DNA of 64,000 bases, taken from Patescibacteria group bacterium. GTDB lineage: Bacteria > Patescibacteriota > Microgenomatia > UBA1406 > GWC2-37-13. The stretch is taken from the NCBI GenBank assembly GCA_025057905.1, contig JANWUX010000001.1:208155-272154 (forward strand), in the 5' to 3' direction. The notes under the pieces were generated by a model. That model saw only the letters and a program-made list of their open reading frames with translations, was not told the DNA's origin and did not search any database. Shown piece by piece: positions 32,611-54,607 of the stretch (position 1 is the stretch's first letter; each line of letters opens with the position of its first letter). The position numbers and the translations under genes were made by a program.

Positions 32611-33744
32611 CTAAAGAAATGGCTGCCACTGAGTCAAAGGAATTAAATTATAAGAAGCAAAATTCACCGCGTAGAGAAATATTGCAAGAAGAAGAAAGAG
32701 AAAAACCAATAAAAATTCTCTAGAGGTAAAAAAACCTTCAAAAGCAATTACGGCCATTGGCCAAAGAGGCAGGCTGTAACGAGATATGTCTCGATGTTGA
32801 ACAAATAGGATGGCTAAGAAAAAAATCAAACTGAAGTAAAAAAAACTTCGAAATTTGATTTTTCTTAGAGAGTAGACCACTAGGCCGTAAAGAAAAAAAT
32901 AAAACAAGACATCTTCAAGCCAGGCCGTTCCAACCCAATTTTTTTTGTAATCAAAGACGGCAAATGGATGAACAAGATGGATATTATCACCGGAATTAAA
33001 ATAAGCAAAAAAATCACCTGTTCTTAAGAAATAAAAAACAAAAACCAACAAGAGAGCCAATGGAATAAGACCAATTCCCCACCATTCTCTTTTGATCTCA
33101 ATCTTTTTTTTACTTATCATTCTTTCTAAGAAAACCAATAAATAGACTCCAAAAAGCAAAATACCTGGAGTTTTTGTCATTGTTGACAGACCTCCGAAAA
33201 GGCCGGCAAGAAAGTATCTTTTCTGCTCAAAAAAGTAAAGAGAAACTAGAATCAAAAAAATAAACATCGACTCAGGTGCCCCAACCGAGCGAACAACAAA
33301 AAAACGGGGAAGAAACAAGAAGGTAATCACCAGTAAAAGAGGCTTTGCCGAAAGCTTAAAATTCTTTAGAAGAAAGTAAAGAAAACATGTCAGAGAGATA
33401 GTAAAAATTAAATTAACAATTAACATTGATTTTAGAAAGCTAAACCGACTAAACCAACCACCTATAAGATTAAAGATTTCGCCAATAACTCTTATAAGCA
33501 AAGGATAAAGAGGCAGATGAGCTGGGTAGTATCTTGCCGGGATACCCAACTCACCAAAACCGAAATTAGTGTTAACTTTTTCTATTTCTTGAGGATTATA
33601 AAAAGTTTTTGCCGGAATGGTATAAAGAATTCCGTCAAAATTTCGGTAGATAGTTTCCATACCAACCACAAGCCAAAGAATTAGAGTCGAAGCTAAACAA
33701 ATTACTGATAAAATAAAATACGGTGATTTAAAGAACTTAATCAT
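32611..33744 (-). CDS. GT-C fold/GT39-like integral membrane glycosyltransferase
   Basis: 377 aa polytopic; RYYPAHLPLYPLLIRVIG, SVGAPESMFIFLILVSLYFFEQKRYFLAGLFGGLSTMTKTPGILLF. Confidence 0.75.
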   Translation of the reverse strand: MIKFFKSPYFILSVICLASTLILWLVVGMETIYRNFDGILYTIPAKTFYNPQEIEKVNTNFGFGELGIPARYYPAHLPLYPLLIRVIGEIFNLIGGWFSRFSFLKSMLIVNLIFTISLTCFLYFLLKNFKLSAKPLLLVITFLFLPRFFVVRSVGAPESMFIFLILVSLYFFEQKRYFLAGLFGGLSTMTKTPGILLFGVYLLVFLERMISKKKIEIKREWWGIGLIPLALLLVFVFYFLRTGDFFAYFNSGDNIHLVHPFAVFDYKKNWVGTAWLEDVLFYFFLYGLVVYSLRKIKFRSFFYFSLIFFLAILFVQHRDISRYSLPLWPMAVIAFEGFFTSREFLLVFLFLLLAIFLYAVNFASYNLIPLTQWQPFL

Positions 33745-35251
33745 GATTGATATTCTAGCAAAGACAAAACTCTATATTTCTCGAGTGGTATTTTTTTTTA
33801 GTAAAAAAAAATCAAAATTAGCTCTCTTTTATTTCATTGTCCTAATGAGTATAATCTCTTTTGGCATCTTTCTTCGTTTTTACCGCTTTGAGGAGTTCGT
33901 CACTTTCCTAGGTGACCAAGGTAGAGACGCAATCATCATCAAAAGAATTATCACCGGGGAACATTTTCCAGCCATTGGTCCACCAAGCTCAGTCGGCCAG
34001 GTCTATCTTGGTCCTTTTTATTACTATTTCATTGCTCCTTGGCTTTTGTTTTTTAATTTTAATCCTCTTGGACTTGCCTTTGGTGTCTGCTTTTTTTCTT
34101 CATTGTTTATAATTGTTAATTACTTGATAGTCAAAGAACTCTTTGACCAAAAAACAGCTTTGATTTCTTCAACCTTAGTTGCATTTTCTTTTGTCTTAAT
34201 TGATCTCTCTAGATTTTCCTGGAATCCTAATCTTCTACCCTTATTTAGTCTTATCAATCTTTATTTTTTTATAAAAAGCCTGAAAACTCACCGTTGGTAT
34301 TATTTTGGACTAACTGGCGCTTTTTTATCATTTTGTCTTCAACTTCATTATGTCTTTCTCTTTTCTTTGCCAGGTTTTTTTTTGATCTATCTTTTCTCCT
34401 TCAAAAGAAATCGGGTCAATTTAAAAACCTCTATATTAAACTTCTCGATATTGCTGACAGCTTTTTTTCTTTCTAGTTCCCCTTTGCTCATTTTTGATTT
34501 AAGGCACAATTTTTTGAACACAAAAAATTTCCTTAATCTTATTTCCCAATCAAGATCAGATTTAACTCAAAAAATCAGCAATTTCCTGGAGTCTTTTTTT
34601 GCTCTTAATCAATTTTCTTTTAATTTCGAAATGAATAAATTACTTGCTTATAGTTTAATTTTTTTTCTGAGTTTGTTGACCATAGTTTTTGTGAAAAAGG
34701 AAGACTCCCTAAAGTATTTTTTGGTCACCTTACTGTTCTCTTTAATTTTTATGTCTTTTTTTTCCGGTAAAAAGCACCCTCATTATTTTGCAAGTCTTTA
34801 CCCTTTGTACTTTGTCATCATTGCTAATTTTTTTTCATTTTTTTCTGATTCAAACTTTGGAAAAGCCACTATTTTTGCATTTGTCGCTGGCTTTATTTTT
34901 CTTAACTTTCAGAAATATCCTTACTTCAGATTTCAGGGAGATAATCAGATAAATAAATCAAGAAGAGTGGCTTTTAAGATCAAAGAAAATGTAAAAAGAG
35001 AGAAATTCACGATTACCTCCTTACCAGAGCAATATTCTGATTCAACCTATCGCTACTTTTTAGAGATCTGGGATAAAAAACCAATTGAAAAAAACTCCCT
35101 AGAAAAAGCTGATGAGCTCTTTGTTGTATGTGAAGGAGAGTGCTCAACAATAATTGGCAATCCACAATGGGATATTGCTTATTTTGCTCCAACCAAAATA
35201 ATCGGTCAGTGGGAGATTAACAACACTAAAATATATAAACTGATCAGATGA
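33743..35251 (+). CDS. GT39/ArnT-like membrane glycosyltransferase (DQGRD subtype)
   Basis: 502 aa; FLRFYRFEEFVTFLGDQGRDAIIIKRIITGEHFPAIGPPSSVGQVYLGPFYYYFIAP. Confidence 0.82.
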   Translation: MIDILAKTKLYISRVVFFFSKKKSKLALFYFIVLMSIISFGIFLRFYRFEEFVTFLGDQGRDAIIIKRIITGEHFPAIGPPSSVGQVYLGPFYYYFIAPWLLFFNFNPLGLAFGVCFFSSLFIIVNYLIVKELFDQKTALISSTLVAFSFVLIDLSRFSWNPNLLPLFSLINLYFFIKSLKTHRWYYFGLTGAFLSFCLQLHYVFLFSLPGFFLIYLFSFKRNRVNLKTSILNFSILLTAFFLSSSPLLIFDLRHNFLNTKNFLNLISQSRSDLTQKISNFLESFFALNQFSFNFEMNKLLAYSLIFFLSLLTIVFVKKEDSLKYFLVTLLFSLIFMSFFSGKKHPHYFASLYPLYFVIIANFFSFFSDSNFGKATIFAFVAGFIFLNFQKYPYFRFQGDNQINKSRRVAFKIKENVKREKFTITSLPEQYSDSTYRYFLEIWDKKPIEKNSLEKADELFVVCEGECSTIIGNPQWDIAYFAPTKIIGQWEINNTKIYKLIR

Positions 35252-35264
35252 TCGACCCAGTTTT

Positions 35265-36020
35265 ATGGTTATATCCTTAATCATACCTTGCTACAACGAA
35301 GAAGCAAACATTCAAAAGGGTGTTTTAGATAAGGTCGGTAACTACACGAAAGGTGACCCTCGTTTTTTGGAAGTAATAATCGTTGATGATGGCTCAACTG
35401 ATAACTCGAAAAAAATAATCAAAGAAAAGTATCTCTCTCTTTTTCAAAAGTTTCAACTAATTACTAATTCTCATCAGGGAAAAGCTTTTGCAATTATTAC
35501 AGGAATAAAGAAATCAAAAGGCGATTATGTTATGTTCTCGGACATAGATTTGGCAACACCAATTGAAGAAGCAGAAAAATTAGTCAAGGAAGCTAAGAAA
35601 GGATATCCAATTATCATTGGTTCCAGAGATAACAAGAGAGAGGGGGCGCCATTAATAAGAATGATCATGGCAAGAGGATTTATTATCGTAAGAGACTTAC
35701 TCATTGGCTTAAGAGGCATCAAGGATACCCAGTGTGGTTTTAAACTCTTCAAAAAAGATGTTGCCTTACGAATTATTAAAAACCTAAAAGTTTTTCGTCA
35801 CTCAAAAAAAATCACTCAATCTTCAGTCTCAGCTGGTTTTGATCTCGAATTTTTGTACCTTGCTCTGAAGATGAAGTACCGAGTAAAAGAGGTCCCGGTT
35901 ATTTGGCGTCATGTTGAGACAAAAAATGTTGCCTTTCTTAGAGATTCTTTAGAGACTTTAAGAGACATTCTAAAAATAAAGATTTACTCGATCTTGGGGA
36001 AGTACAATTCACTCACATAA
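35265..36020 (+). CDS. Family 2 glycosyltransferase, dolichyl/polyprenyl-phosphate glucosyltransferase-like
   Basis: 251 aa; ISLIIPCYNEEANIQKGV, IVDDGSTDNSKKI, FSDIDLATPIEE, GLRGIKDTQCGFKLFKKDVA. Confidence 0.88.
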   Translation: MVISLIIPCYNEEANIQKGVLDKVGNYTKGDPRFLEVIIVDDGSTDNSKKIIKEKYLSLFQKFQLITNSHQGKAFAIITGIKKSKGDYVMFSDIDLATPIEEAEKLVKEAKKGYPIIIGSRDNKREGAPLIRMIMARGFIIVRDLLIGLRGIKDTQCGFKLFKKDVALRIIKNLKVFRHSKKITQSSVSAGFDLEFLYLALKMKYRVKEVPVIWRHVETKNVAFLRDSLETLRDILKIKIYSILGKYNSLT

Positions 36021-36031
36021 AGAAATAACAA

Positions 36032-37306
36032 ATGGTTGAAAAGACTGGTCAAAGACAATTTTTTGATCTTTTCATCATCTTCATTTTTTCATTGTTGGTT
36101 ATTTTCTTTCGTTTTCCCTTAGTTCCAAAAAATCTTGCCTTTGATGAGGTTGAGTTTGCCAGACTAGCTCTTTCTCTAGAAAACCAACCTTACACTCCCT
36201 ACTCATCTCTGGCTACTGGCCACTCAACTCTTTATTTTTACCTTATTTTCTTTTCCATAAAAATTTTTGGAATTAACAACTTTGCCCTTCGTCTACCTTC
36301 AGCTATTTCGGGAGTAGTTGCTGTGTTTGTCTTTTATTTTCTAGTTAGAAAAACAAAGTTCAAGTTTCCTTTGATCGTAACTTTGCTTTTTCTTACCTCT
36401 CGGTGGTTTTTTAATTTTTCTCGGTTTGCCTTTGAGGCAAGCTTTCTTTTAATGTTGGAGCTTATTTCTCTTAATTTTCTTCTTAAAGGAATTGCTGAAG
36501 GATTAATTTATCTTGCTGGAGCTGGTTTCTTTAGTGGTCTTGCTTTTAATTCCTACACACCAGGACGAATTTTTTTTCTTTTACCTCTCTTTGTTCTTCT
36601 TTACCAAAAAAAAGCGAAGAAACTCTCTGGAAGGGCTTTTTCTTTAGGTTTACTGCTTTTTCTTCTTCCTTTTTTGATAACGAGCGCACCATTAGCAAGC
36701 TATCTTTTAGAACACCCAGACGAACGAGTCAATCAACTTTTTTTTTGGAAAAATGAGGAACTCACTCTTCAGGAAAAGATCACAGATACAATTACCAACG
36801 TAAAGTCTTTGTTTTTAATGTTTTTTTGGCAAGGTGATCTAAACGGACGGCACAATTATCCAGGCAAACCAGCTCTTAATCCTTTTTTGGCAATCTTATT
36901 TTTCTTTGGGGTAATAATAGCTTTGAGAATAGTGAAGAAAAGAAGAGAAACCGACAAAAAACTTTTTTCGTTAATTTTTCTGGTCTATCTTTTTTTGTCT
37001 CTTTTTCCTTCACTGGCAGTTTATTCCTGGGAAAATCCAAACATGCTTCGAACATACACGGCTTTACCCTCAGTTTTTTTCTTTATCGGTCTTAGCTTGG
37101 AAACAATTCTGGAGAAACTTAAAAACCCAAAAGAAATTACTTTGAAAGCCGCATATCCAACAATAATTCTTTTCTTAATTCTTTCTTCTTTTTATGAAAT
37201 CAGAACTTACTATAAGTATCAGATCATTGTTTTTAATGACGCTTTTGATGTTAGAGAACCACTTGAGAAAATAATGACGAGAGAAAAAAACAATGAAGAT
37301 CAATAA
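36032..37306 (+). CDS. GT39-like membrane glycosyltransferase
   Basis: 424 aa polytopic; RFPLVPKNLAFDEVEFARLALSLENQPYTPYSSLATGHSTLYFYLI. Confidence 0.82.
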   Translation: MVEKTGQRQFFDLFIIFIFSLLVIFFRFPLVPKNLAFDEVEFARLALSLENQPYTPYSSLATGHSTLYFYLIFFSIKIFGINNFALRLPSAISGVVAVFVFYFLVRKTKFKFPLIVTLLFLTSRWFFNFSRFAFEASFLLMLELISLNFLLKGIAEGLIYLAGAGFFSGLAFNSYTPGRIFFLLPLFVLLYQKKAKKLSGRAFSLGLLLFLLPFLITSAPLASYLLEHPDERVNQLFFWKNEELTLQEKITDTITNVKSLFLMFFWQGDLNGRHNYPGKPALNPFLAILFFFGVIIALRIVKKRRETDKKLFSLIFLVYLFLSLFPSLAVYSWENPNMLRTYTALPSVFFFIGLSLETILEKLKNPKEITLKAAYPTIILFLILSSFYEIRTYYKYQIIVFNDAFDVREPLEKIMTREKNNEDQ

Positions 37307-38690
37307 AAAATTAATCAGTTTTTTATTCCTTTTTTTAATTAGTTTTTTTCTTCGAGTTTACCGAATTGATCATTATATTTCATTTCATCAAGATCAAGTC
37401 CGAGATCTCTTTTTCATAAAAAATCATTTTCAAGAAAAAACGATTCCTCTTCTAGGGCCGAAAGCGTCTGTTGGCGATTTTTTTTTACCACCATTTTGGT
37501 ATTACTTGATGAGTTTATCTTATCTGATATCACCTTCACCTCTATCTCCAGCTTTATTAGTGGCGACTATCAACAGTTTTGTCCCGCCAATTTTTTTTCT
37601 TTTTTTAGGAAGATTTTTTTCTAAGAGAATAAGCTTTCTCTCAGGTCTTCTTCTGGCAGTGTCACCACTAGCAATTGATTATTCCCGCTTTGCTTGGAAC
37701 CCAAATCCAATTCCTCTTTTCTCCCTGTTAACCTTTTACTGTCTATATGAGATTCTTTTTTGCCAAAGTTCACCGAAAAAAAAAGAGATTATTTTTTTTA
37801 TTTTTGGAACAATTTCTGCTAACCTCACTTTTCAACTTCATTATCAAGGGACAATCATTTTTCTATTTTTCTTCCTTATTCTCTTAATCAAAAAAAAATT
37901 TGATTTAATAAAAATCTTCGTTTACTTGACGATTAATTTTTTATTAATTCTTCCATTGATTATCTACGAGATAACAAATCAATTTTCAAACATTAAAGGA
38001 GTAATTAGCTTCTTTAGTGCCTCTCAGAGAACAAATTTTGAGTTTTTTGGTTTACCTTTTTATCTTCGTTTTTTACTCAACGATTTTTCTAAGTTCATTT
38101 CTGAACTTATTTTCTTCAAAAATCACTCTCTTGGTTATCTTGGATTAGTTTTTTTTACTGCAGGATTGGTTTCCTTTTGTTTTCGCTGGCTTTCACTAAC
38201 TCCTCAAGAAAGATTATTGGTTGTATTTTTAATTTTTTCGTTGTTTTTTCTTTTTATTTACAAAAACTCTCTCATCAATTTTTACTTACTTTTCCTGATT
38301 CCCTCGATGGTTGCCTTTCTTTCTCTGTATTTTCTAAAAATCAGTAAAAAGTTGTTTCCTCTTTTAATGCTGGTTTTGATTATTATCAATCTTTTTCACT
38401 CTCCCGCTTTTGGTCCCTATGACAATACTTATCTTTGGCTAGTTAATGTCGCTAAAACAATCTCGTCAACTCAAGATTATTGTCTTGAATACGATCTTTT
38501 TGAGGAAACTTTCCTTGAGGATAAACTTCGTTATCTTTTTTTAATTCAAAAAAATGAAGAAAGTCCATCTCGTTGCCGGAACAAATTCTATATCTGCCAT
38601 CGGGAAAAATGCCAATTAAAAAAGTATTCTCAGATTAAAAAAATTCCTTTCTCGCAGACCGACTATGTTCAGGTTTTTAAAGTTAATTAA
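37293..38690 (+). CDS. GT39-like membrane glycosyltransferase (DQ-RD subtype)
   Basis: 465 aa; FLRVYRIDHYISFHQDQVRDLFFIKNHFQEKTIPLLGPKASVGDFFLPPFWYYL. Confidence 0.8.
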   Translation: MKINKKLISFLFLFLISFFLRVYRIDHYISFHQDQVRDLFFIKNHFQEKTIPLLGPKASVGDFFLPPFWYYLMSLSYLISPSPLSPALLVATINSFVPPIFFLFLGRFFSKRISFLSGLLLAVSPLAIDYSRFAWNPNPIPLFSLLTFYCLYEILFCQSSPKKKEIIFFIFGTISANLTFQLHYQGTIIFLFFFLILLIKKKFDLIKIFVYLTINFLLILPLIIYEITNQFSNIKGVISFFSASQRTNFEFFGLPFYLRFLLNDFSKFISELIFFKNHSLGYLGLVFFTAGLVSFCFRWLSLTPQERLLVVFLIFSLFFLFIYKNSLINFYLLFLIPSMVAFLSLYFLKISKKLFPLLMLVLIIINLFHSPAFGPYDNTYLWLVNVAKTISSTQDYCLEYDLFEETFLEDKLRYLFLIQKNEESPSRCRNKFYICHREKCQLKKYSQIKKIPFSQTDYVQVFKVN

Positions 38691-38804
38691 TTCGCTTAAA
38701 TTCGGTAATCTATAAAAAAACAATTTTGAGACTTTTTCCTGATCTCCAAATTTCTTATGAAGATTTTAAATTCGGCAACATCTTCTGCTAAAATCTAATG
38801 AAAA

Positions 38805-40343
38805 ATGTTTGATATTTTTAAAATCACACGCTTTCTCCTGCAAAATTTCTCCGCGAAAGACTGGGTGGTAATTTTTCTTGTAATTATCGCTTTTTTTATT
38901 TCGAGACTTCTCTTTCTTGATAAATTTCCAATTTTTTCCGATGAGGGGATTTATATCAAATGGGCAAAAACCGCATGGCAAGACGCCAGCTTGCGGTTTA
39001 TTTCCCTAACTGATGGCCGTCAGCCTCTTCAAACATGGGCGACTATTCCGTTTTTAAAACTCTTTCCTGAAAACTCACTATTGGCAGGCCGTTTATTTGC
39101 CGTTTTTTCTGGACTAACAGCTCTGGTTGGGATTTTTTTTCTCAGTTATTATCTCTTTGGAAAAAAAACAGCTTTAATTTCTTCACTATTGTATGTTTTA
39201 ACACCATTATTTTTATTCTTTGATCGAATAGCTCTAGTTGACTCCCTTGTCAATAGTGCTTTTGTCTGGATAACCTTCCTTTCTCTTATTCTAGCCAAGA
39301 CTCTTCGTCTCGACATCGCTCTTATTCTAGGTTTAGTCACCGGTCTTTTTCTCTTGGCCAAATCTTCGGTATTTCTTTTTTTGATCCCTTTGTTTATTAG
39401 CGGTATTATTTTTTTTGATAACAAAAAAAATCTCCCTCAAAGACTAATCAATTTTTTTATCTTAACCATTCTCTCCTTAGTGATTGCTTTGGCTGTTTAT
39501 AATGTTCAACGACTTTCTCCCTACCTTCATTATGTCAGTGAAAAAAACAAAACCTTTATTCTGACTGTGGAAGAATGGGTCAAAAACCCTTTTCAGGTTT
39601 TCTGGCATAACTTTCGGTACATTCCTTATTATGTCGCTCACTCGTTAGGTTACGCTTCTTTTAGCTTCGGACTTTTTGGTTTGATAATTTTGTTTAGAAA
39701 AAAAACTCTTCTGGCTGCCTATCTTCTTTTTTCTTTGATAATGATCTATTTACTAATGTCTTTTTTTATGAAGATTTTGTCAACAAGATACGTGATTTTC
39801 TATGGCTCAGTTTTTATAATTCTAACAGGATACTTTCTTTCTTTATGGTTGAAAAGAGTCACTAAGAAAAAAATTGTCTTTCTAATAACCTGTTATATCT
39901 TTACTTTTTATTTTTCATACACGATTATTATTGACTTTAAAAATATTCCCTTTGCCCCCTTTCCCCACCCGTCTGTTGATCGAGGTCAGTACATCGAAGG
40001 TTGGCCAGCAGGGTGGGGAATAAGAGAATTTATCGAACAAGCAAGAAAAAAAGCCAAGGAAAAACAAGTAATCATTATTGCCGAAGGAAATTTTGGAATG
40101 GCTGGTGATGTTTTAGAAGCTCATCTTAAACCAAGTGATCGAATCAAGATTAAATCTTACTGGCCAATTAAAGAAGAAAATTTAAAAGAAAATCAACCAC
40201 TTCTCATTAATTCACATGTCTATGTTTTTTTTGCTCATCGAGAAACTTTTCCAGATTATTGGCCAATTAAGTTAGTAAGAACTATCGAAAAACCAAGCAA
40301 TCGCTCACGCTTTTATATTTTCGAGTTAACTAACAAAAGGTGA
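38805..40343 (+). CDS. GT39-like membrane glycosyltransferase
   Basis: 512 aa; LDKFPIFSDEGIYIKWAKTAWQDASLRFISLTDGRQPLQTWATIPFLKLFPENSLLAGRL. Confidence 0.82.
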   Translation: MFDIFKITRFLLQNFSAKDWVVIFLVIIAFFISRLLFLDKFPIFSDEGIYIKWAKTAWQDASLRFISLTDGRQPLQTWATIPFLKLFPENSLLAGRLFAVFSGLTALVGIFFLSYYLFGKKTALISSLLYVLTPLFLFFDRIALVDSLVNSAFVWITFLSLILAKTLRLDIALILGLVTGLFLLAKSSVFLFLIPLFISGIIFFDNKKNLPQRLINFFILTILSLVIALAVYNVQRLSPYLHYVSEKNKTFILTVEEWVKNPFQVFWHNFRYIPYYVAHSLGYASFSFGLFGLIILFRKKTLLAAYLLFSLIMIYLLMSFFMKILSTRYVIFYGSVFIILTGYFLSLWLKRVTKKKIVFLITCYIFTFYFSYTIIIDFKNIPFAPFPHPSVDRGQYIEGWPAGWGIREFIEQARKKAKEKQVIIIAEGNFGMAGDVLEAHLKPSDRIKIKSYWPIKEENLKENQPLLINSHVYVFFAHRETFPDYWPIKLVRTIEKPSNRSRFYIFELTNKR

Positions 40344-41240
40344 AAGAATTTTTCATTATCCTGACAATTTCTTTTGTCTGTCGATTAATTTTTTTGTTAT
40401 TTGGCATAGATTCCATTGCTCACGATGAAGCTGATGCCTTTTTAAATAGTTATTTTTTTGCCAAAATTTGGGTTTATGAAAAGAATTTTAAGCAATAAGA
40501 TTACTGTCATTATTACTTATATAATCAGTCATTTTTTTTTCTCTATTAATACAATTATCGTTTTCTTGAAAGATGATCCTCATCCAATTTATGGAACCAA
40601 CTTATTTGGGCTTTTCTATCTCTGGCAATTGATCACCTTTGTCATTGGAGTAATTTATCTTCTCAAGATTCCTCACCTCAAAATATTAATCCCTTTTCTT
40701 CTTATAATAACCTTTGGCTCCATTCCTACGGCAATCTCGGTTCTTGAACCAACAACCGCTCTCAGATCATTTCCAATTATTTTTCCATTCTCCTTAATCA
40801 TTGCTAACAGGCTTTATCAATTAAGAAATTTTCTAAGAAAAAAAACAAATCAACAATATTTCAACATTCTCCTGGTTTTTCTATTTATTTTCTCTTTCTT
40901 TCAGTTTTTCATTTTCTTTCAAACACGAATAAAAATCTTGTCAAATGAACAGTGGCATCGAGGAGAAAAAAGATTATTTGAAAAAATAATCCAGGAAAAA
41001 AATGAGAAAGAAAAAATATATATAGTCAACAACGAACCAAGGAAAACTTTCATATTGTCTACCTTTTATAATTTAAAAAATCCCTCCTTAGTCAAAGAAA
41101 AACTTAAAAAACGAGACTTTACCCACGAAAATTTAATTTTCACCAATGAAAAAATTTCTTCTCTTAAAAGAGAGATTCTCATTAAAAGATATACACAAGA
41201 CATTGAAAAACTGATAAATGAAAAAAAAACTCACCAGTGA
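40340..41240 (+). pseudogene. Decayed GT39-like glycosyltransferase (internal deletion plus frameshift)
   Basis: GTG at 40340 reads VKEFFIILTISFVCRLIFLLFGIDSIAHDEADAFLNSYFFAKIW...KQ* (N-terminal GT39 block, stop at 40498), overlapping ORF 40458-41240 in another frame encodes only C-terminal TM/LPxxTAL-type region. Confidence 0.7.
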
Positions 41241-41296
41241 AAATTTTCTTTTATCAGAAAATCGAAGCGTTGTCCTTTATTGAGTTGTTCTAGAAA

Positions 41297-42982
41297 ATGA
41301 AATTTTTCATTCTTCTTATTTCGATTGCTTCAATTGTCTTTTTTTTGGGAAAGTCACTTCTTCCCTTTAATGACTTTTTTTTTGACTTCCACGACGAAAC
41401 TCAGCCAGCGCGAATTCAAGAGTTTGTCTTAAATTTGAAAAATCTAAATCTTCCGCCAAGAATCGCTCCAAATTTTTCTTTCAACCTGGGTTATCCAGTT
41501 TTTACCTATTATGCCCCCTCCTCATATTGGCTGACCTCTTTTTTTCATTTGATTGGTTTTTCAATCATTGATTCCTTAAAAATTTCATTTCTTCTTGCGC
41601 TCTTAATGAGTTTTTTCTCAATGACGAAACTTATGTCTTTGTTTTTTAATTTTTGGGCTTCTGCTTTTGTTGGTTTACTTTATGCCTCTTCGCCTTGGTT
41701 AGCCGTTGAGATCTTCGTTCGTGGCAACTTAGCTGAACTCTGGTTTATTGCGGTTTTACCACTCTCTATTTATTTTCTAATCAAGAATAGCCAAGAATCA
41801 AATCGTCAGGTATTTTTTTTTACCTGTCTGGCTTTTGTCTTTATTCTCTCTGTTCATAACATTCTTTCCCTGATTTTTTTTCCATTTTTAGTAATTTTCA
41901 TCCTTGTTAATAAACATCGAGAACGAAACCTCAAGGCTCTAGGTATGTCTTTATTGGTTAATAGTTATTTTTACCTGCCGGCGTTTTTTCAGCTTAACTT
42001 GATTAACACAGCCAATCTTCTTTCTTACTCCAATTATTTAGATCACTTTCTTTGCCTTTGGCAGCTCTGGACGGCTCCTTATTGGGGATATGGCGGGTCA
42101 AACCATGGTTGTCAGGATGGAATGTCATTTATGATCGGCAAACCCCAGATCTTGCTTGGAAGCGCTGGTCTGTTGTTTTTTCTGTTGAATCTCAGAAAGT
42201 TCAATCAAATTCTAATTAGGAATTTTCTGGTCATTTTAAATTTGCTTTTACTGTCGATTTTTTTTGTCAGTTATCTTTCCTTCTCCTTTTCGAAAATTTT
42301 TTTTAACTTTTTTAATTTTTTTCAGTTCCCCTGGCGATGGTTAAGCTTCGCAGTTTTTGGTTTGGTTAGTTTTTCAGGTTTTCTTTCTAATTGCTTTCCA
42401 AAAAAAAGACCGATTCAGCTTGGTATTATTTTGTTCTTTGTTGGCCTTGGGATCACCGTTTATAATAGCAAATTTTTCACCAAGACTCCCATCTCAATAG
42501 ACAGATTCAATCAGAATTTTTTATCTTCAGATTATGTTGAAAAAAGAGTTGTTTATAAAATCGCAGATTATCTTCCTTGGTCGGTCAATTATCAGACTTG
42601 GCTTCAACACGAACCAAAAAAAAATCAGACCTACTTGGTCGATCAATCACTTGAAGATAAGCTTCCAGCCAAGACTAAGAATAATCTTTTAATCAAAAAA
42701 AATGAACCTTTCGAAAGAGAGTTTGAAATCAAAAAAGTAATCGAAAACAAGGTTATTATTAATATCCACTATCTGCCTCATTGGAAGATTTTTATCAATG
42801 GCAAAGAATTTTTTCCAGAAAAACTTGACCTCCTTGGTCGACCAGAGATCAAGATTAATCAACCATCTCACATTCTAATAAAATATCAGCAAACTCCGGT
42901 AGAAAAAGTCGCCAATTTCGTCAGTCTTTTGACGTTGATTTGGCTTGGGTTAACTTTCTTTAAATCCTTTTCAAGAAGATAA
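41297..42982 (+). CDS. Large polytopic membrane protein, 6-pyruvoyl-tetrahydropterin synthase-related/YfhO-like (GT-C type)
   Basis: 561 aa; FFDFHDETQPARIQEFVLNLKNLNLPPRIAPNFSFNLGYPVFTYYAPSSYWLTSFFHLIGFS, EIFVRGNLAELWFIAVLPL. Confidence 0.75.
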   Translation: MKFFILLISIASIVFFLGKSLLPFNDFFFDFHDETQPARIQEFVLNLKNLNLPPRIAPNFSFNLGYPVFTYYAPSSYWLTSFFHLIGFSIIDSLKISFLLALLMSFFSMTKLMSLFFNFWASAFVGLLYASSPWLAVEIFVRGNLAELWFIAVLPLSIYFLIKNSQESNRQVFFFTCLAFVFILSVHNILSLIFFPFLVIFILVNKHRERNLKALGMSLLVNSYFYLPAFFQLNLINTANLLSYSNYLDHFLCLWQLWTAPYWGYGGSNHGCQDGMSFMIGKPQILLGSAGLLFFLLNLRKFNQILIRNFLVILNLLLLSIFFVSYLSFSFSKIFFNFFNFFQFPWRWLSFAVFGLVSFSGFLSNCFPKKRPIQLGIILFFVGLGITVYNSKFFTKTPISIDRFNQNFLSSDYVEKRVVYKIADYLPWSVNYQTWLQHEPKKNQTYLVDQSLEDKLPAKTKNNLLIKKNEPFEREFEIKKVIENKVIINIHYLPHWKIFINGKEFFPEKLDLLGRPEIKINQPSHILIKYQQTPVEKVANFVSLLTLIWLGLTFFKSFSRR

Positions 42983-42984
42983 TC

Positions 42985-45290: not shown

Positions 45291-45291
45291 G

Positions 45292-46125
45292 ATGATCGGC
45301 TTGATAACAGCAAACTATAATCAATACGAGCAGACAAGAGCGTTTTTAGATTCCTTAACTCAGGTAACTGACTGTTCAAATCTCTACCTTTATTTAGCAG
45401 ATGTCTCATCAAAAAAACAAGAAATCCATGTCTCTGACTATCCCTTTAAAATCAAAATAGCTACTTTGCCCAATAAAGGATATGCCTTTGTCATCAACGA
45501 AGGAATTCGATTTTTTTTAAACCAAGGACTGATTCAGTTTTGTGCGATCAACAATGACATTTATTTTAAAAAAAACTTCGCTCAAGAAGCTGCAACCGGC
45601 TTTAAAATCGCCGATATCTTTGGTGGAAAAATATACTATGCTCCTGGATTTGAGTATCATAAAAATCGGTATCGCCTAGAAGACCGAGGAAAAGTAATCT
45701 GGTATGCAGGAGGAAAAATTGACTGGAGAAATGTTCTTTGCCTTCATCGAGGTGTTGATGAGATAGACCTCGGACAGTACGATCGCTTTGAAAAAACCGA
45801 TTTTATCACTGGCTGTCTGATTTTTTTTAATAAGAAAGTCATTGATAAGGTTGGCTATTGGAGAGAAGAATATTTTCTTTACTTTGAAGATGCTGATTTT
45901 TGTGAAAGAGCCAAGAAAGCTGGCTTTACCCTATACTACAATCCAAAAATTGTCATTTATCACCAAGTTTCCCAGTCAACTCAAGGATCAGGTTCAGAAT
46001 TTCAACGACATTATCAAGAAAGAAATCGCCTTATATTTGGCTTAAAGTATGCTCCTTTTCGAACAAAAATTCACCTGATCAAAAATTGTGTTTTTAATAA
46101 ATTTAATAATCTCTTCAAGAAATGA
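45292..46125 (+). CDS. Family 2 glycosyltransferase (rhamnosyltransferase-like)
   Basis: MIGLITANYNQYEQTRAFLDSL, FCAINNDIYF, DFITGCLIFFNKKVIDKVGYWREEYFLYFEDADFCERAKKAG. Confidence 0.9.
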   Translation: MIGLITANYNQYEQTRAFLDSLTQVTDCSNLYLYLADVSSKKQEIHVSDYPFKIKIATLPNKGYAFVINEGIRFFLNQGLIQFCAINNDIYFKKNFAQEAATGFKIADIFGGKIYYAPGFEYHKNRYRLEDRGKVIWYAGGKIDWRNVLCLHRGVDEIDLGQYDRFEKTDFITGCLIFFNKKVIDKVGYWREEYFLYFEDADFCERAKKAGFTLYYNPKIVIYHQVSQSTQGSGSEFQRHYQERNRLIFGLKYAPFRTKIHLIKNCVFNKFNNLFKK

Positions 46126-47803
46126 ATTTAACCAAAAAACTTTTCTTTATTCTGATAATTTCTTTGAGCTTCTTTGTTCGTTTTTTTCAGATTGATCGAT
46201 TGCCTTATGGACTTTTACCGGATGAAGCCAGTATTGGTTACAATGCATATTCAATTTTAGTTACTGGCAGAGACGAGCACAACAAAAAGTTTCCTCTAGT
46301 TTTTGAGGCTTTTGGTGACCAAAAACTTCCACTTTACATCTACCTTACCGTACCAGTCATAAAACTTTTTGATCTGAGTAATTTTAGCCCTCGATTTGTT
46401 GCTGGAATTTCGGGCGTAATTTTTATTCTTTTAATCTTTAAACTCACCCGGATTCTTGGTTTTGGAGTAAATCAATCACCGTTTGCTTCAACAATTGTTT
46501 CAATTAGCCCCTGGACAATAATGCTAAGCCGTTTGTCTTTCGAGGCTTCTCTAGGTCTGGTCCTTTTTTCTTCTGGATTGTATTTTCTTGTCAGAAACAA
46601 ATCAAAAAATGACTTCTTTATTTCATTGCTATTTTTCTCTTTGACTTTCTTTTCATATATTCCCTACCGCTTCGTTAGTCCTTTGTTATCTCTTTTTATT
46701 ACTCAAGTTATTCAAAAAAATCGGTTTCGAAGTTTTATTTAGGATTCGTTTACTTAGGGCTATATCTAATCTTGTATCTTTTTCAGATTCAAGCCACAAA
46801 TTTTGCTCGCTTTAGTCAGATAACTTCCAACAGTGTTCTTGGTCTTGTTCTTAAAATTAATGAGTATCGTAATCACTGTTTGGATTTCTCTCCTCAGCTA
46901 TTATGTTACTTGATCGCCAATAAAATAACTTTCTTTGTTCGAGAGTTCTTTTTCCGTTATCTAAAACTATTTTCTACTGATTATTTATTTATTTCCGGTG
47001 ACTTTGAACTGAAATACTTAAACGTTGACCAATTTGGTTTATTACCGTTCATCTTTATTCCTTTTTATGTTGCCTTTTGGATCGTGCTGATAGATAAATT
47101 AATAAAAAGGAAGATCGGCCATCTTGAAAAATTAATTACTTTTAGTTTAATTATCACCCCAATTCCTAATCTTTTAGTTAGTGATCCCCAGAAAGTCAGA
47201 CTTTCTCCAATGATTCCATTTTTAATCTTGGCTTTAGTTATTGGATTTAACTTTTTTCTGGGAATTATAAGGTCTGAAATAAGAAAATGGGTTTATATAA
47301 CAACATATTTGGTCTCCTCGATTTATTTTGTTTTTTTTAGTGTAAGCCTCTTTGTTCACTTTAATAAATACGAGATTAATTATTACTCCCATGTCAGACG
47401 CCTGATTGAATTTATGATACAAAAACCAGAATCGGAATTTTTTATTAGAAATTACCCGGAACTTCCTATCATCTATGCCTTTTATTCAAAGCTTAATCCA
47501 ACAATCGATCAGAAAGAAGCCAAGCGCAAGAAAAGAGATCAACTAGGCGCTTTTCACATAGAAAAAATAAGAAACGTCAACATGACTGAAAAGAAAATTG
47601 AGGAAATTTATTGTCAATTAAAAAATAAAAACCTTCTCTCTAACAAAAATTACATCTACGCAATCAACGAAAATCTCATCGACAATCAAAAAATCAGCAA
47701 AGCCGAAAAGATAATTTTTTCAAAAGATACTTCTCTTCAATTAATCTTCGTTTACAGCCTAAATGAAATTAACTCTCAATTTATTAGTTGCCTACCAGAT
47801 TAA
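46122..47803 (+). pseudogene. GT39-like membrane glycosyltransferase split by a frameshift at an A7 tract (46714-46720)
   Basis: ORF 46122-46742 (PDEASIGYNAYSILVTGRDEHNKKFPLVFEAFGDQKLPLYIYL) continues in the -1 frame as KFYLGFVYLGLYLILYLFQIQATNFARFSQIT... (ORF 46772-47803) without break. Confidence 0.8.
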
Positions 47804-47805
47804 AA

Positions 47806-49261
47806 ATGACACTTTGGCAAAAAATACTTTTTTGCTTAATTTTAGCCTTTTGGGTTTATTTCAGAATCTCGCCAATTATTAATCTCACCGTTCCCTACAC
47901 CTATGATCAAGGAAGAGATTTTTTGAAAGTCAAAGAGATGGTAGAAGAAAAAAACCTCCCTTTTATTGGGCCAACAACGGGTCGTGAAGGAATTTTTCAT
48001 GGTGTCTGGATCTATTATTTTTTATCAATTCCTTACCTGCTTACTGGAGGTGAACCCATAAGCTTTTATTTATTTTTCTTCTTCCTAAATTTACTCTCAA
48101 ACATTTTTTTCTTTTTATTTCTGCAAAAGAACTTCAATCTTTTAGCAGGTTTTCTTTTTCTCGCAATTACATCTGTTTCTGATTATTTTGTTAGAATTGC
48201 TTTTTTTCCCAGCAACGATCATCTTTCTCCTATCTTTGTTATTTTTTTTATCATTTCAAGCTATTTTTATTTTAAGAATAAAAAAAAACAAGCAACTATT
48301 TCTAATTGGCATTTTTTCTGGATTTATCCTTGAATCAGAGTTTGCCTTTGGCATATTCTTTATCCCTTCTGTTTTTATCTCTCTCTTCATCTTTGAAAGA
48401 TTCCCTTTTATGAAAAAACTTCCATTTTTTCTCACTGGCCTTCTCTTGCCATTAATTCCAAGATTATCATTTGAGATTAAAAACAACTTTCTTCAGACAA
48501 GAAACTTTTTTAGATATCTTGTAGAGAAAACATCTCTTACTCAAATTAACCCAGGTGATGTCTTATCCAGAAGATTTGAGTTATTTTTTCAATATTTAAG
48601 GGAAATATTTATCTTTGAATTTCTTTCTTTGATGATCGTCATTCTCTCAGGTTTAACTCTTTTACTTTTTTTCAAGGAGTTATCAAGAAAAAAATGGATC
48701 TTTTTTCTTCTTTTTTGTCTCACTTTGGTTTTTCTACTTTCTTTAATTTATTCTCGAGGCCAATTTTATTCTTATTATCTCAACGGCATTCAATACTTAA
48801 TCTTTAGTTTTTTAGTATTGCCTTTAATGACGATGCGAAGAAAGTTAATAAAAATTATCTTAACAGGGATCTTTATTTTTTATCTGGTGATTATTGTGAT
48901 CTATTTTAAAACTTCAATTACCAATAAAAAAATTCCTCTTGTCGGCTTAAGAGCGGACAAGGAAATCATTAACTACTTGATAAAGAAAACAAACAATCAG
49001 GAATTTTGTCTAAGAATCTACACTCCACCAGTAATTCCTTATACCTATCAGTATCTAATTGTTTTTTACCAGAAAAAGAATCTTGTAAAGCAACCTAACC
49101 TCGATTTTTATCAGAGCAGATGCTACTTTATCATTGATTATGATGAGTATAAATTTCGAGTTGAGAATTGGAGAAAGAATAACACTCCAGTAAACGCTCG
49201 ATTGATCGAAGAAAAGTTATTTGAAAACAAAACTAGGCTAGAGATTTATGAAATCATGTAG
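47806..49261 (+). pseudogene. GT39-like membrane glycosyltransferase (DQGRD subtype) split by a frameshift at an A9 tract (48280-48288)
   Basis: ORF 47788-48333 (VPYTYDQGRDFLKVKEMVEEKNLPFIGPTTGREGIFHGVWIYYFLS...FYFKNKKK) continues after A9 in another frame as ...KNKQLFLIGIFSGFILESEFAFG (ORF 48188-49261). Confidence 0.8.
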
Positions 49262-50354
49262 AAAGAATTTATTCTTGTTTTTGATTTTTGGTTTGTTGAT
49301 TTTTGTTAACTTGACTCGCTCTTACTCACAATTCAAGATTAATCTCCTTTTTAATCAATTTGACTTTAAGAAGTATGAAAACCAATATCTTCAGTCTCAG
49401 TGGGTGATCCCCAATAGCCAACATCCAATTGGGGATGATGTTCTGTATACCTATGCTGGCGTGAAATATCTTAAAGGAACTGACCCATCACTTCTTAATC
49501 CGGAACACCCACCATTAGGGAAAAATTTAATTGGCATAAGCGCTCTTTATCTAAAAAACGAGTATTTCTTTAGTTTAGGGAGCGGCGTTTTTTGTGCTCT
49601 TAGTTTTTTTTTGCTTATCTATAAAAAAATTTTGAGAAAAAAAATCATTGCTTTTCTCTTGACTGTTGCTGTATTTTTAGAACCAGTGTTTATTGCAAAT
49701 ATCTTCTCCACTAATCTTGATCTTTTGTTTTTTGGCCTTTTTTGCCTTTATTTATTCTTTACTATTAGCTATCAAGAAAGACAAAGTTTTTTTTCTCTTT
49801 TTTTGGTAAGTATTTTTTTTGGTTTTATGATTAGCGTCAAAGTCTATCTTCTTTCTGTACCAGTGATCACCGCCACCGTGATCTATTTGCTAGCCAAAAG
49901 AAACTTTCCAGGTATTTTTTTCTTTGGTATTAGTCTTTTAGTTTCATTTTTTATACTTATAGTCAGTTATTTTCAATATTTTCTAAAGGGTCACTCTTTC
50001 CTTGATTTTCTGAGCCTTCAAAAATACATTTTTGCTTTTCATGTCCAAGGTAGACAAGAAGCCTTATTTATAAATCCAGGTCTTTTTGAGCTTCTCTTTT
50101 TTGGCCGGTACTACCCAGACCTAAAAAAACCGGCCCAAGAAGCTCACTTTAGTCCCGTTTGGCCAATTATTACCTATTTTGGAGTATTAGGCTTGTGTTT
50201 TAAAAATAACTGGTTATTACCAATCATTTGGTCCAGTACTTACATTTTTTTCAACCTTCTCACTTTTCCAAATGTTCGATATCTAATTCCCTTGCTTCCT
50301 TTTGTTTATCTGTTTTTTGCTGGTTTTCTAGTCAGAAAGATCAAAATAGATTAA
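49248..50354 (+). CDS. PMT/GT39-like membrane glycosyltransferase
   Basis: 368 aa; SQHPIGDDVLYTYAGVKYLKGTDPSLLNPEHPPLGKNLIGISALYL. Confidence 0.82.
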   Translation: MKSCRKNLFLFLIFGLLIFVNLTRSYSQFKINLLFNQFDFKKYENQYLQSQWVIPNSQHPIGDDVLYTYAGVKYLKGTDPSLLNPEHPPLGKNLIGISALYLKNEYFFSLGSGVFCALSFFLLIYKKILRKKIIAFLLTVAVFLEPVFIANIFSTNLDLLFFGLFCLYLFFTISYQERQSFFSLFLVSIFFGFMISVKVYLLSVPVITATVIYLLAKRNFPGIFFFGISLLVSFFILIVSYFQYFLKGHSFLDFLSLQKYIFAFHVQGRQEALFINPGLFELLFFGRYYPDLKKPAQEAHFSPVWPIITYFGVLGLCFKNNWLLPIIWSSTYIFFNLLTFPNVRYLIPLLPFVYLFFAGFLVRKIKID

Positions 50355-50362
50355 AATAGGGT

Positions 50363-51079
50363 ATGAAAAATCTAACTGTTGTTATCTACTCTCCCCAGGA
50401 TAATTATCAATTAAAACAATCAATAGAAAATGCTGAAATCCTTTCAAAATTCATCACTATCGTTTATCCTAATTCTCCAATTGTCGAGACGGTTAGAGAA
50501 ATAGGAATAAAAAAAGCTCAGACCGAATGGGTATTGATTATTGATGCCGACGAGCGCATTTCTCTCTCCTTGTCCGAAGAGATCAAAAAAACTATTCAAC
50601 AAGAAAATTTTGGCGCTTACAAAATTCCTCGAAAAAATATCTTTACTTTAAGAAATGATCACATTTGTCAAAAAAAATGGTTAAGATGGGGTGGCTGGTG
50701 GCCGGATTATCAAATCCGCCTCATTAACAAAAAAAACCTCATTTGCTGGCCAAAAGTTATTCACGCCTCCCCGATCATCAAAGGAAAAATTGGCACTCTT
50801 TCTCAGCCCATTTATCATTATTTTCACAGTGATTTAAGATCAATGGTCAATAAAACCATTGTTTTTGAAACGATTGAGGCTGAGTTACTTTTTGAAGCAA
50901 AAAAAAAGGCGTCTACTCTCACTTTTTTTAGAAAATTCTTCGGCGAACTGGGACGTCGGCTTGTTAGGAATCGAGGTTTTCTTGACGGCTCAATCGGTAT
51001 CCTCGAGTCAATTTACCAGGCTTTCTCAAAAACTATCACTTATCTTTTTCTTTATGAAAAAATCGTCACTGACAAGTAA
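50363..51079 (+). CDS. Family 2 glycosyltransferase (paralog of 44400..45290)
   Basis: EWVLIIDADERISLSLSEEIKKTI, KKWLRWGGWWPDYQIRLINKKNLICWPKVIHASPII. Confidence 0.86.
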   Translation: MKNLTVVIYSPQDNYQLKQSIENAEILSKFITIVYPNSPIVETVREIGIKKAQTEWVLIIDADERISLSLSEEIKKTIQQENFGAYKIPRKNIFTLRNDHICQKKWLRWGGWWPDYQIRLINKKNLICWPKVIHASPIIKGKIGTLSQPIYHYFHSDLRSMVNKTIVFETIEAELLFEAKKKASTLTFFRKFFGELGRRLVRNRGFLDGSIGILESIYQAFSKTITYLFLYEKIVTDK

Positions 51080-52139
51080 AACTGTCGGCGTTTATTCACC
51101 TTTTCTTGATGTTTTGGGTGGAGGGGAAAAACATCTTTTTGCTATCTTGGAGGTTTTTTCTCAAAAAGGCGCAACCGTCTCTTTTTTTTGGAAAGAAAAC
51201 CTCTCTTCGCTTGTTTTTAAGCGGTTTGGTTTTGATTTTGTAAAAAAAGCCAATTGGCTTTCTGTTGATTTGATTAAAACCTCCTGGAGGAAGATGATAT
51301 TCTTGAGAAAATTTGATTACTTTTTTTACGTCCCCGACGGAAGTTACTTTTTTTCAACCGCAAAAAAAAATTTTATTTTTGCTATGGTTCCTGATAAAAA
51401 ACTTTACTCTCTTCACCTGCTAAACCGACTTAAGCTTCTTAATTATCAATTTTTAAGTAACTCGCCGTACACAAGTGAGTGGCTGAAAAGATGGGGAATT
51501 AGAAGCTTTGTGATTTTACCTTATGTAAGCGAGGAGTTCTTTCTAACCAATAAATCAATAAAAGAAAAAATTATCCTTGTTGTTGGCCGTTTCTTTCCTC
51601 ATCTTCACTCTAAAAATCACGAAAAAGCGATTGAAATCTTCGTTGAATTAAAGAAAAAAAGCCCTCTCTTTAAAGATTACCGCCTTATTCTAGTTGGAGG
51701 CTTAAAAAAAGAGGATCATGATTATTTTAATCATCTAAGATTCCTTTCAAAAAAAAATTCTCATATCGTCATTCTTCCTAACCTATCTCTCAGAACATTG
51801 CTCACTTACTATCATCAAGCTCGATACCTCTGGCACTTTACTGGTCTTGGGGTTGACGAAGCTCGTCAACCAGAGAGAGTCGAGCATCTTGGTTTGGCTC
51901 CTCTTGAAGCTGCAGCCTCTGGCTGTTTTATTCTTTGTCATCGCTCGGGCGGTCCAAGGAAACTCTTTAGACATCAACCAGATGTTCTCTTTGAAAATGA
52001 AAAAGAGTTAGTCGAGAAAATGGTCCTAGTAGAAAAATATCCCTCATTGAGAGAAAGAATTATCAAGAACAATCTGAGATTAATCAGAAAAAAATTTACT
52101 AGAAAAGTATTTAGCCGTCGAGTTTCAGAGCTTTTCTAG
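51054..52139 (+). CDS. Family 4 glycosyltransferase
   Basis: KTVGVYSPFLDVLGGGEKHLFAILEVFSQKGATVSFFW; VDEARQPERVEHLGLAPLEAAASGCFILCHRSGGPRKLF. Confidence 0.88.
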   Translation: MKKSSLTSKTVGVYSPFLDVLGGGEKHLFAILEVFSQKGATVSFFWKENLSSLVFKRFGFDFVKKANWLSVDLIKTSWRKMIFLRKFDYFFYVPDGSYFFSTAKKNFIFAMVPDKKLYSLHLLNRLKLLNYQFLSNSPYTSEWLKRWGIRSFVILPYVSEEFFLTNKSIKEKIILVVGRFFPHLHSKNHEKAIEIFVELKKKSPLFKDYRLILVGGLKKEDHDYFNHLRFLSKKNSHIVILPNLSLRTLLTYYHQARYLWHFTGLGVDEARQPERVEHLGLAPLEAAASGCFILCHRSGGPRKLFRHQPDVLFENEKELVEKMVLVEKYPSLRERIIKNNLRLIRKKFTRKVFSRRVSELF

Positions 52140-53036
52140 ATGAATAAAAACTTATTTCAGTTCTCCGTTATCATTCCCGTCTATAAGAATTATCAGTTCT
52201 TTTTAAAAAATCTAAAAAGAAATTATCGATTTTTATCTGATTGTCAGTTAATTGTAGTAAATGATTATCCGGCAGTCAAAATAAGAAAGATGATCTTGCA
52301 CATCTACCCTTCAATCACGGTAATTGACAATGAGAGAAACCTTGGTTTTGGAGAGAGCATTAATCAAGGGGTTAAAATGGCTAAAGGGAAGTATCTTTTT
52401 TTGCTTAATTCCGATGTTATCATCCAAGATTTCTCATTTAAAAAAATTATTGATTTGTTCAGAAAAAACACCAGGCTTTTTGCCGTCAGTCTAATCCAAA
52501 AAGAAAAAAATGGTAAGACAGTTGGCGCCAACCGGGGTTTCTTTAAAGACGGTCTAATTTATCACCAGTCAAGAATCTTCGATCAAGACAAACCGAGTTT
52601 TAATTTTTGGGCTGAGGGTGGCTCAACAATTTTAAGAAAAGATATCTTTGAAAGATTAGGAGGGTTTGATGATCTTTTTTCGCCTTTTTATTGGGAAGAT
52701 GTCGACTTGAGCTATCGAGCTTGGAAGGCAGGTTATGAAATAATCTTTGACCCAAGAGTGGTCGTAATCCATCATCATGAAACCACCATCAGCCGGTACT
52801 TTAAAAAGGACACTGTAAGGAAAATCGCCCTTAGAAATCAACTTCTTTTTTTCTGGAAGAATGTTACTGACAGCTCTCTCTGGAAAAATCATTTTTTTCA
52901 TCTTTTAGGCTACATAAATCAACCAGGATTTTTTGAAGCTTTTTTTAGATTGCATAAATTAATATCAAGAAGAAACAAAGTCTTAAAATTGTTTAAAAAA
53001 ACAGATAAAGAGATTCTTGACTTGTTTCAATCATGA
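52140..53036 (+). CDS. Family 2 glycosyltransferase
   Basis: FSVIIPVYKNYQFFLKNL, YLFLLNSDVIIQDFSF, GGFDDLFSPFYWEDVDLSYRAWKAGYEIIFDP. Confidence 0.9.
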   Translation: MNKNLFQFSVIIPVYKNYQFFLKNLKRNYRFLSDCQLIVVNDYPAVKIRKMILHIYPSITVIDNERNLGFGESINQGVKMAKGKYLFLLNSDVIIQDFSFKKIIDLFRKNTRLFAVSLIQKEKNGKTVGANRGFFKDGLIYHQSRIFDQDKPSFNFWAEGGSTILRKDIFERLGGFDDLFSPFYWEDVDLSYRAWKAGYEIIFDPRVVVIHHHETTISRYFKKDTVRKIALRNQLLFFWKNVTDSSLWKNHFFHLLGYINQPGFFEAFFRLHKLISRRNKVLKLFKKTDKEILDLFQS

Positions 53037-54607
53037 AAAAATCACTATTTTTTGTTTTTGTTATCAGTCTCCTTTCAACTTTTTTGTTTCTCTTCAAAAT
53101 AACCAGAGTTCCCCCGGCTTTAAATGCTGATGAAGCCACTAACGCGTATGATGCCTATTCTATTCTTTTGACTGGTCAAGATCAGCATGGTCACTTTCTG
53201 CCTCTGCGATTTCAGTCTTTTGGTGACTATAAACTGCCAGTAATAACTTATCTTTTAATTCCCTGGGTAGCAGTTTTTGGTCTGACCGAATGGGCCGTAA
53301 GACTGGTTAACCTGCCATTCGTCTTCTTTTTTCCAATTTTAGTTTATCTTCTGACAAAAGAACTTTTTCGGTCAACCCCGATAGCCATGATTGCTTCTTT
53401 TTTAACTGGATTCTCACCGGGGCTTCAGACGCTCGGTCGACAAGCCCATGAAGGTTATCTGACGGCTTTTTTTCTAACTTTATCTTTTTACTTAATATTG
53501 AAGGGAATGAAAAGAATCTCTTTTGGTTACGTAATTGTCTTTGGCCTTTCTTATTTTTTGTTTCTCTTTGGTTATCACTCATCTCGAATCTGGGTCTTGA
53601 TGATTATTGGTCTTCTAGTTTATCTAACTTTGAAAAAGAAGATTTCATTTTACTACCTTTTAATAAGCTTAATAATCACTCTTTTCTTTATATACACAGA
53701 TCTTCGCTATCAACCAACAAGAGTTGTCAATCTCATGTTTTTTAAAACGCCTGGCTTTGCAAGCAAACTAACCGAGTTAAGAAATGAAACTCCATTTCAA
53801 GTACTTCATAACTTATTTACACTTGCCTTTCGAGAGCTAACTAGTAATTATTTAATCTACTTCTCGCCTCAGTTTCTGGTGATTGAGGGAGATAAAAATC
53901 CCCGCTTCGGCTTTGAGGGTGTCTCACCGATAACACCAGTAGAATATTTATTCATCTTCATCGGTCTTTATTTTCTCTTTGCTAACAGGGAAAAGTGGCG
54001 TTGGCTGATTCTAATATTAATTTTGCTGGCGCCATTTTCTGGAAGTTTATCCTGGGCGAAACAATCCCTCACTCGAACCGTTTTTCTTCTTATACCTTTT
54101 TTTATTGTTGCTAGTTATGGCTTCTTTAACTTTATAAAGAAAACTAATCTTTTGTTAGGTCTTTTTTTTGTACTTTTTTATATTCTTTTCTTATTTTTCT
54201 CTTGGGAGTTTTACTTTTTTCACTATCCAAAAAGAGCAGTGGTCCTTCGAAGTTGGCAGGTTGGTTACCGAGAATTGGCTGATTATATAAAAACAAATTA
54301 TCACAAATTTGACCGCTTTTACCTTACTCGAAAAAACGGACAACCCTACATTTTTCTTCTTTTTTTTCTTCGTTATCCACCCCAGCGATTTCAACAGCAA
54401 GCCAGGCTCTTACCCCCTGATGAGTACGGCTTTACTCAAGTAAGAGAGTTTGACAAATTCTATTTTGAACTCTGGCCTATCAAGGAAACGAAAAACTATG
54501 TCATCATTGGTTATCCCGACGATTTCAATCTTCACGAAGAAAAAAAACTTAAGGAAATCAAGATCGGGACAGAAACTATCTTTCTAATAAAGGAAGTTAG
54601 AGACTGA
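53033..54607 (+). CDS. GT39-like membrane glycosyltransferase
   Basis: 524 aa; RVPPALNADEATNAYDAYSILLTGQDQHGHFLPLRFQSFGDYKLPVITYLLIP. Confidence 0.87.
   Translation: MKKSLFFVFVISLLSTFLFLFKITRVPPALNADEATNAYDAYSILLTGQDQHGHFLPLRFQSFGDYKLPVITYLLIPWVAVFGLTEWAVRLVNLPFVFFFPILVYLLTKELFRSTPIAMIASFLTGFSPGLQTLGRQAHEGYLTAFFLTLSFYLILKGMKRISFGYVIVFGLSYFLFLFGYHSSRIWVLMIIGLLVYLTLKKKISFYYLLISLIITLFFIYTDLRYQPTRVVNLMFFKTPGFASKLTELRNETPFQVLHNLFTLAFRELTSNYLIYFSPQFLVIEGDKNPRFGFEGVSPITPVEYLFIFIGLYFLFANREKWRWLILILILLAPFSGSLSWAKQSLTRTVFLLIPFFIVASYGFFNFIKKTNLLLGLFFVLFYILFLFFSWEFYFFHYPKRAVVLRSWQVGYRELADYIKTNYHKFDRFYLTRKNGQPYIFLLFFLRYPPQRFQQQARLLPPDEYGFTQVREFDKFYFELWPIKETKNYVIIGYPDDFNLHEEKKLKEIKIGTETIFLIKEVRD

Follow-up and report, generated by a model that had tools for sequence, protein, structure and literature searches.

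A 64,000-nucleotide stretch of DNA from a Patescibacteria group bacterium (termed the window) contains an island at positions 32611-54607, which is rich in genes for GT-C-like membrane glycosyltransferases and in which genes are designated by the left ends of their open reading frames (ORFs). This island is a locus that is conserved across the class and consists of fixed backbone genes and variable slots. It is probably the surface-glycan assembly locus of the class, in which a lipid-linked glycan is begun inside the cell, flipped across the membrane, and finished outside by the GT-C enzymes. The island contains 11 GT-C-like genes (32611 on the minus strand, 33743, 36032, 37293, 38805, the 40340 remnant, 41297, 46122+46772, 47788+48188, 49248 and 53033), of which eight are intact, one is a deletion pseudogene and two are split by frameshifts. 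It also contains genes for six soluble glycosyltransferases (35265, 44400, 45292, 50363, 51054 and 52140) and for a Wzx-type flippase (42985), and no sugar-nucleotide synthesis genes are recognised in it. An earlier reading of this DNA, made by a model without database searches (the sequence-only reading), proposed a glycan-assembly island with about 11 GT-C enzymes. This proposal is borne out, because the GT-C enzymes, the GT2, the soluble glycosyltransferases and the flippase are confirmed, and the same GT-C count is obtained from ORFs, Pfam and orthologues. The ORFs and three-frame translations match the coordinates of that reading. It also counted six soluble glycosyltransferases in addition to 35265; these enzymes are present, but their total is six with 35265 included.

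The conservation of the island was analysed in 18 genomes of the same order, which were chosen for the presence of a 35265-like GT2 and a 53033-like GT-C on one contig and are thus selected for co-location. All 18 islands contain matches to 32611, 33743, 35265, 38805, 41297, 42985, 45292, 50363, 52140, 53033 and the CPBP protease gene at 54608. Matches to 36032 and 44400 are often, not always, present, and the GT4 gene (51054) is recognised by position and size. The islands span 18-42 kb with 7-18 GT-C-like genes each, as counted by hydropathy. The synteny comparison proposed earlier shows that the backbone order is common to these genomes, being nearly identical in all of them, with variable GT-C genes between the backbone genes. 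The CPBP match adjoins the 53033 match in 18/18 genomes (a short ORF intervenes in one), and RpoD matches come next after the island in 13 of the 18. The 50363 and GT4 homologues are fused into one 632-amino-acid ORF in the island of genome G035 (L048-L049), and the islands of G029 (L041-L043) and G053 (L058-L061) are interrupted by stretches of at least roughly 10 kb, whose ORFs are mostly soluble and have no match in the window.

The same core is recognisable in five genomes of other families in the class, likewise chosen for co-location. The class is probably Microgenomatia, as the named relatives of DnaG include Microgenomates bacterium UTCPR1 and a Roizmanbacteria genome. The profile of 38805 at E 1e-40 detects this family in 22 of the 23 class members sampled (this genome excluded), a count that depends on the genome listing being kinship-ordered, and in 0 of 263 genomes that belong to other classes of the phylum. 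In each of the 20 searched class genomes that have all three families, relatives of 38805, 35265 and 41297 lie on a single contig and no more than about 50 kb apart. A match to 35265 is present in 51 of 56 relatives. The island was earlier called lineage-specific. This description holds at the level of the class, for which 38805 is a signature family, and is refined here: the locus is conserved, its backbone is fixed, and its other slots vary.

Three of the GT-C genes are broken in this genome. The remnant at 40346..41240 (+), which retains an HDEAD motif, lacks about 219 internal codons relative to a 531-amino-acid orthologue, as detected by tblastn against intact orthologues, so that its earlier designation as a pseudogene is correct. 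The GT-C gene at 46122..47803 (+), of the DEA subtype, is split by one frameshift in the interval 46718-46790, and 46122 is its N-terminal half. The GT-C gene at 47788..49261 (+), of the DQGRD subtype, is interrupted by one frameshift at about 48281-48291, at an A9 run near 48280. The remaining frame is open in both genes, and either frameshift could reflect decay or an error of assembly. Phase variation is not supported: one break lies at an A9 run, but A/T runs of at least 8 are common in the window. The apparent split of the 37293 homologue in G019 is a scaffold gap of N, and a 53033 orthologue is found in two pieces at G006:C37:6228-7825. The distances of the always-present genes correlate with those of DnaG (rho 0.42-0.89, 13 genomes), except for 41297 (rho 0.12, 13 genomes). 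The 41297 slot is always filled, often by a distant relative and sometimes on the opposite strand, and its occupant has apparently been exchanged. The deletion pseudogene, the two frameshifts and the 41297 slot that is out of step with DnaG are consistent with a decaying or laterally acquired cluster that has no stable role. However, such a cluster is very improbable, because the backbone order is common across the order, most backbone genes correlate with DnaG, the acidic motifs are invariant, and a class-signature family exists.

Assignment of the membrane enzymes to GT-C glycosyltransferases is supported by Pfam, invariant motifs and a structural model of modest quality. The Pfam search proposed earlier finds PMT_2, PMT or PTPS_related domains in the ORFs or their orthologues. 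PMT_2 is matched above the cut-off by 33743..35251 (+; backbone, DQGRD subtype, with a weak Agl23-like TIGR03663 match), 36032..37306 (+; FDEVEFA motif, frequent but not constant in order islands), 37293..38690 (+; variable slot, DQxRD subtype, 32% to 33743), 38805..40343 (+; backbone, SDEGIYI motif) and 46122, and below the cut-off (0.0019) by 49248..50354 (+), a GT-C-like gene in a variable slot. The right-end backbone gene 53033..54607 (+; NADEA motif, PMT/PMT_2) passes the cut-off of PF02366 (PMT). No Pfam match is found for 41297, 32611 and 47788/48188 alone, and domains emerge when their orthologues are scanned: PTPS_related in 17/19 for 41297..42982 (+; PTPS_related/YfhO-like, HDxTQ motif), GT87 in 7/19 and PMT_2 in 5/19 for 32611..33744 (−; the divergent left-end backbone gene), and PMT_2 in 8/12 for 47788/48188. 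The acidic motifs (DE, DQGRD or HD) are invariant in alignments of 13-19 orthologues and are predicted to lie in the first extracytoplasmic loop. The invariant residues are D58, G60, R61 and D62 in 33743 (19 orthologues), D38 and E39 in 36032, D46 and E47 in 38805, H32 and D33 in 41297, and D33 and E34 in 53033. Two motif subtypes were recognised earlier. Both are real, as indicated by the matches of 33743 with 37293 (2e-22) and of 46122 with 53033 (4e-25) and by the profile match between the 33743 and 48188 families (E 8e-30), but several genes fit neither subtype. In addition, 36032 matches 46122 (3e-10), and the 53033 profile matches those of 38805 (E 1e-13) and 33743 (9e-12) and, more weakly, those of 41297 (3e-5), the 48188 family (1e-4) and 32611 (4e-4). 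Searches of PDB sequences with four GT-C profiles find no relative.

The structural check by AlphaFold, also proposed earlier, succeeds for one of two proteins. The model of 53033, built from four sequences, is of modest quality (pLDDT 61.5, pTM 0.60), but each of its 17 PDB matches with E<=0.001 is a GT-C enzyme, with a query-normalised TM of 0.35-0.44. These enzymes are PglB, STT3-type subunits, AglB, ArnT and ALG12, and Pmt4 structures are among the weaker fold matches. The single-sequence model of 33743 is unusable (pLDDT 43). The predicted structure of 53033 thus supports a GT-C fold at the fold level for this protein.

The other components of the locus are consistent with assembly of a lipid-linked glycan. 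The soluble backbone protein 35265..36020 (+) has a GT2 domain with DxD and resembles polyprenyl-phosphate hexose synthases (DPMS/ALG5-like). It matches dolichol-phosphate-mannose synthase (PDB 5mlz) with E 4e-17 as a single sequence and 5e-23 as a profile, and it also matches undecaprenyl-phosphate-sugar synthases. These Pfam and PDB matches agree with the earlier claim of one such GT2 in the island. Its likeness to ALG5 serves as a lead only. The backbone flippase 42985..44421 (+) carries a Polysacc_synt domain typical of the Wzx/MOP type (Polysacc_synt_3 2e-48; MOP flippase models below cut-off), and Pfam matches confirm both this flippase and UppP at 26081. The other five soluble enzymes are 44400..45290 (+; divergent GT2-like, Glycos_transf_2 0.016, below cut-off, 31% to a 50363 homologue of a related locus), 45292..46125 (+; backbone GT2, rhamnosyltransferase-like, Glyco_trans_2_3, TIGR01556 below cut-off), 50363..51079 (+; backbone, divergent GT2-like according to Pfam), 51054..52139 (+; backbone GT4, Glycos_transf_1 9e-18 from 51057) and 52140..53036 (+; backbone GT2, Glycos_transf_2 2e-17). 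The gene for a CPBP/Rce1-like membrane protease at 54608..55276 (−; PF02517) forms the right border. The sequence-only reading recognised neither an oligosaccharyltransferase (OST) nor an initiating phosphoglycosyltransferase in the island. Both statements stand: STT3 is absent from this genome and is not found above cut-off in 56 relatives, and the initiating phosphoglycosyltransferases of the genome (two Bac_transf, two Glycos_transf_4) are located outside the island. Three Wzy_C matches and a Bac_transf phosphoglycosyltransferase cluster at about 63-90 kb of G000:C4, which is possibly a second polysaccharide locus.

The model of a lipid-linked glycan is favoured, because 35265 matches synthases, STT3 is absent, and phosphoglycosyltransferases and Wzy_C proteins are encoded elsewhere. 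In this model, for which we infer the donor, the lipid carrier, the order of steps, what the glycan is and where it is finally anchored, a phosphoglycosyltransferase encoded elsewhere in the genome would prime a polyprenyl-diphosphate carrier, on which 44400, 45292, 50363, 51054 and 52140 would build an oligosaccharide. The flippase 42985 would then turn the lipid-linked oligosaccharide outward. The GT2 35265 would charge polyprenyl-phosphate with hexose to give the donor with which the GT-C enzymes would extend, branch or transfer the glycan on the outer side of the membrane. It was proposed earlier that the GT-C enzymes act on Pro/Thr-rich exported proteins, and direct PMT-like O-glycosylation of such proteins could account for the match of 53033 to PMT above the cut-off, the PMT_2 matches of several others, the Pmt4 structures among the weaker fold matches, and the exported-looking, Pro/Thr-rich protein 5982..7382. 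However, PMT_2 also includes enzymes, such as ArnT, whose acceptors are not proteins, and a flippase and five cytosolic glycosyltransferases are superfluous for transfer of one sugar. The protein 5982..7382, which has a linker rich in Pro, Thr and Ser, matches no Pfam family, and this includes its C-terminal domain. Protein O-glycosylation is therefore unlikely, and a lipid-linked oligosaccharide is the more plausible first acceptor, because the flippase and the five cytosolic enzymes point to it. It is similarly doubtful that the product of the locus is a glycolipid or lipoglycan, formed by stepwise addition of sugars to a membrane lipid, instead of a polysaccharide moved to the wall or S-layer. 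Actinobacterial lipomannan is built by GT-C enzymes (PMC2440535, PMC2157549), and no OST is found in this genome or, above cut-off, in the 56 relatives, but the presence of a Wzx flippase among the backbone genes speaks for a lipid-linked oligosaccharide that is flipped.

Several observations weigh against assembly of a lipid-linked glycan as outlined above. The DxDxQ motif, proposed as a hallmark of polyprenyl-phosphate-sugar synthases (PMC10821137), is not present in 35265, which reads DIDLA with A97 invariant in the alignment. The island has one clear synthase for up to ten GT-C enzymes, and therefore donors may also come from elsewhere. All Wzy_C matches of the genome lie outside the island, and the 18 order genomes were preselected for both markers on one contig. 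A more specific version, in which a class-specific envelope glycan of these bacteria with reduced genomes is mostly finished outside by exchangeable GT-C enzymes sharing one polyprenyl-phosphate-hexose donor, and the variable slots give each lineage its own surface, is offered only tentatively.

In its number of GT39-type genes, this genome does not stand out from the group. It has nine PMT_2 matches, six of them within the 22-kb island, as compared to 4-33 in 56 relatives, and an excess of these genes is therefore rejected as a novelty. What is new here is the conserved class-wide locus. Elsewhere in the window, 12679..13725 encodes a 348-amino-acid protein that resembles the ATPase part of Lon and shows a 41% match to a 773-amino-acid ORF in the related locus L014; it may therefore be Lon-like but lack the protease part. 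Phage records give no match to the window, and among viral contigs 39 stretches fit a pattern, none of which is confirmed.

Limited searches of the open-licence literature, partly judged by titles and the beginnings of abstracts, find no description of this locus, and no open-licence paper pairing Patescibacteria with GT39 or PMT is found. Little is known about the envelope glycans of Patescibacteria. The locus provides a defined target, a set of genes that is conserved and ordered and includes a class-signature enzyme. It indicates the enzymes that should be assayed, and it predicts a single donor common to them and lineage-specific finishing steps.

The locus resembles known systems in different respects. 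O-antigen and capsule loci have conserved borders and a variable interior, and the island likewise has fixed ends and an exchangeable interior; unlike in these loci, however, the interior is dominated by GT-C genes and lacks recognised sugar-nucleotide synthesis genes. The island enzymes are similar to ArnT and other PMT_2 (GT83/GT39-like) enzymes in the PMT_2 domain, the acidic motif near the N-terminus and the presence of ArnT among the fold matches, but four of their profiles have no sequence relative in PDB. In the assembly of lipid-linked oligosaccharides in eukaryotes and archaea, a GT2 (DPM1 or ALG5) charges the carrier and the GT-C enzymes ALG3/9/12/6/8/10 extend the flipped oligosaccharide. 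The island shares with this system a GT2 and several GT-C enzymes, and ALG12 is a significant fold match of the 53033 model, but its genome is bacterial and has no STT3/OST match. The rhamnose-rich wall polysaccharides of Gram-positive bacteria are modified by multicomponent transmembrane glycosylation systems, such as GacI/J/K/L and WpsA/B/G/H/J (PMC10821137). The island differs from these systems in that it has many more GT-C genes per locus, a synthase without DxDxQ and no identified small activator protein. It resembles them in the combination of a polyprenyl-phosphate-sugar synthase, a Wzx-type flippase, GT-C transferases and intracellular glycosyltransferases, and the lactococcal cluster likewise consists of a conserved and a variable part (PMC10821137).

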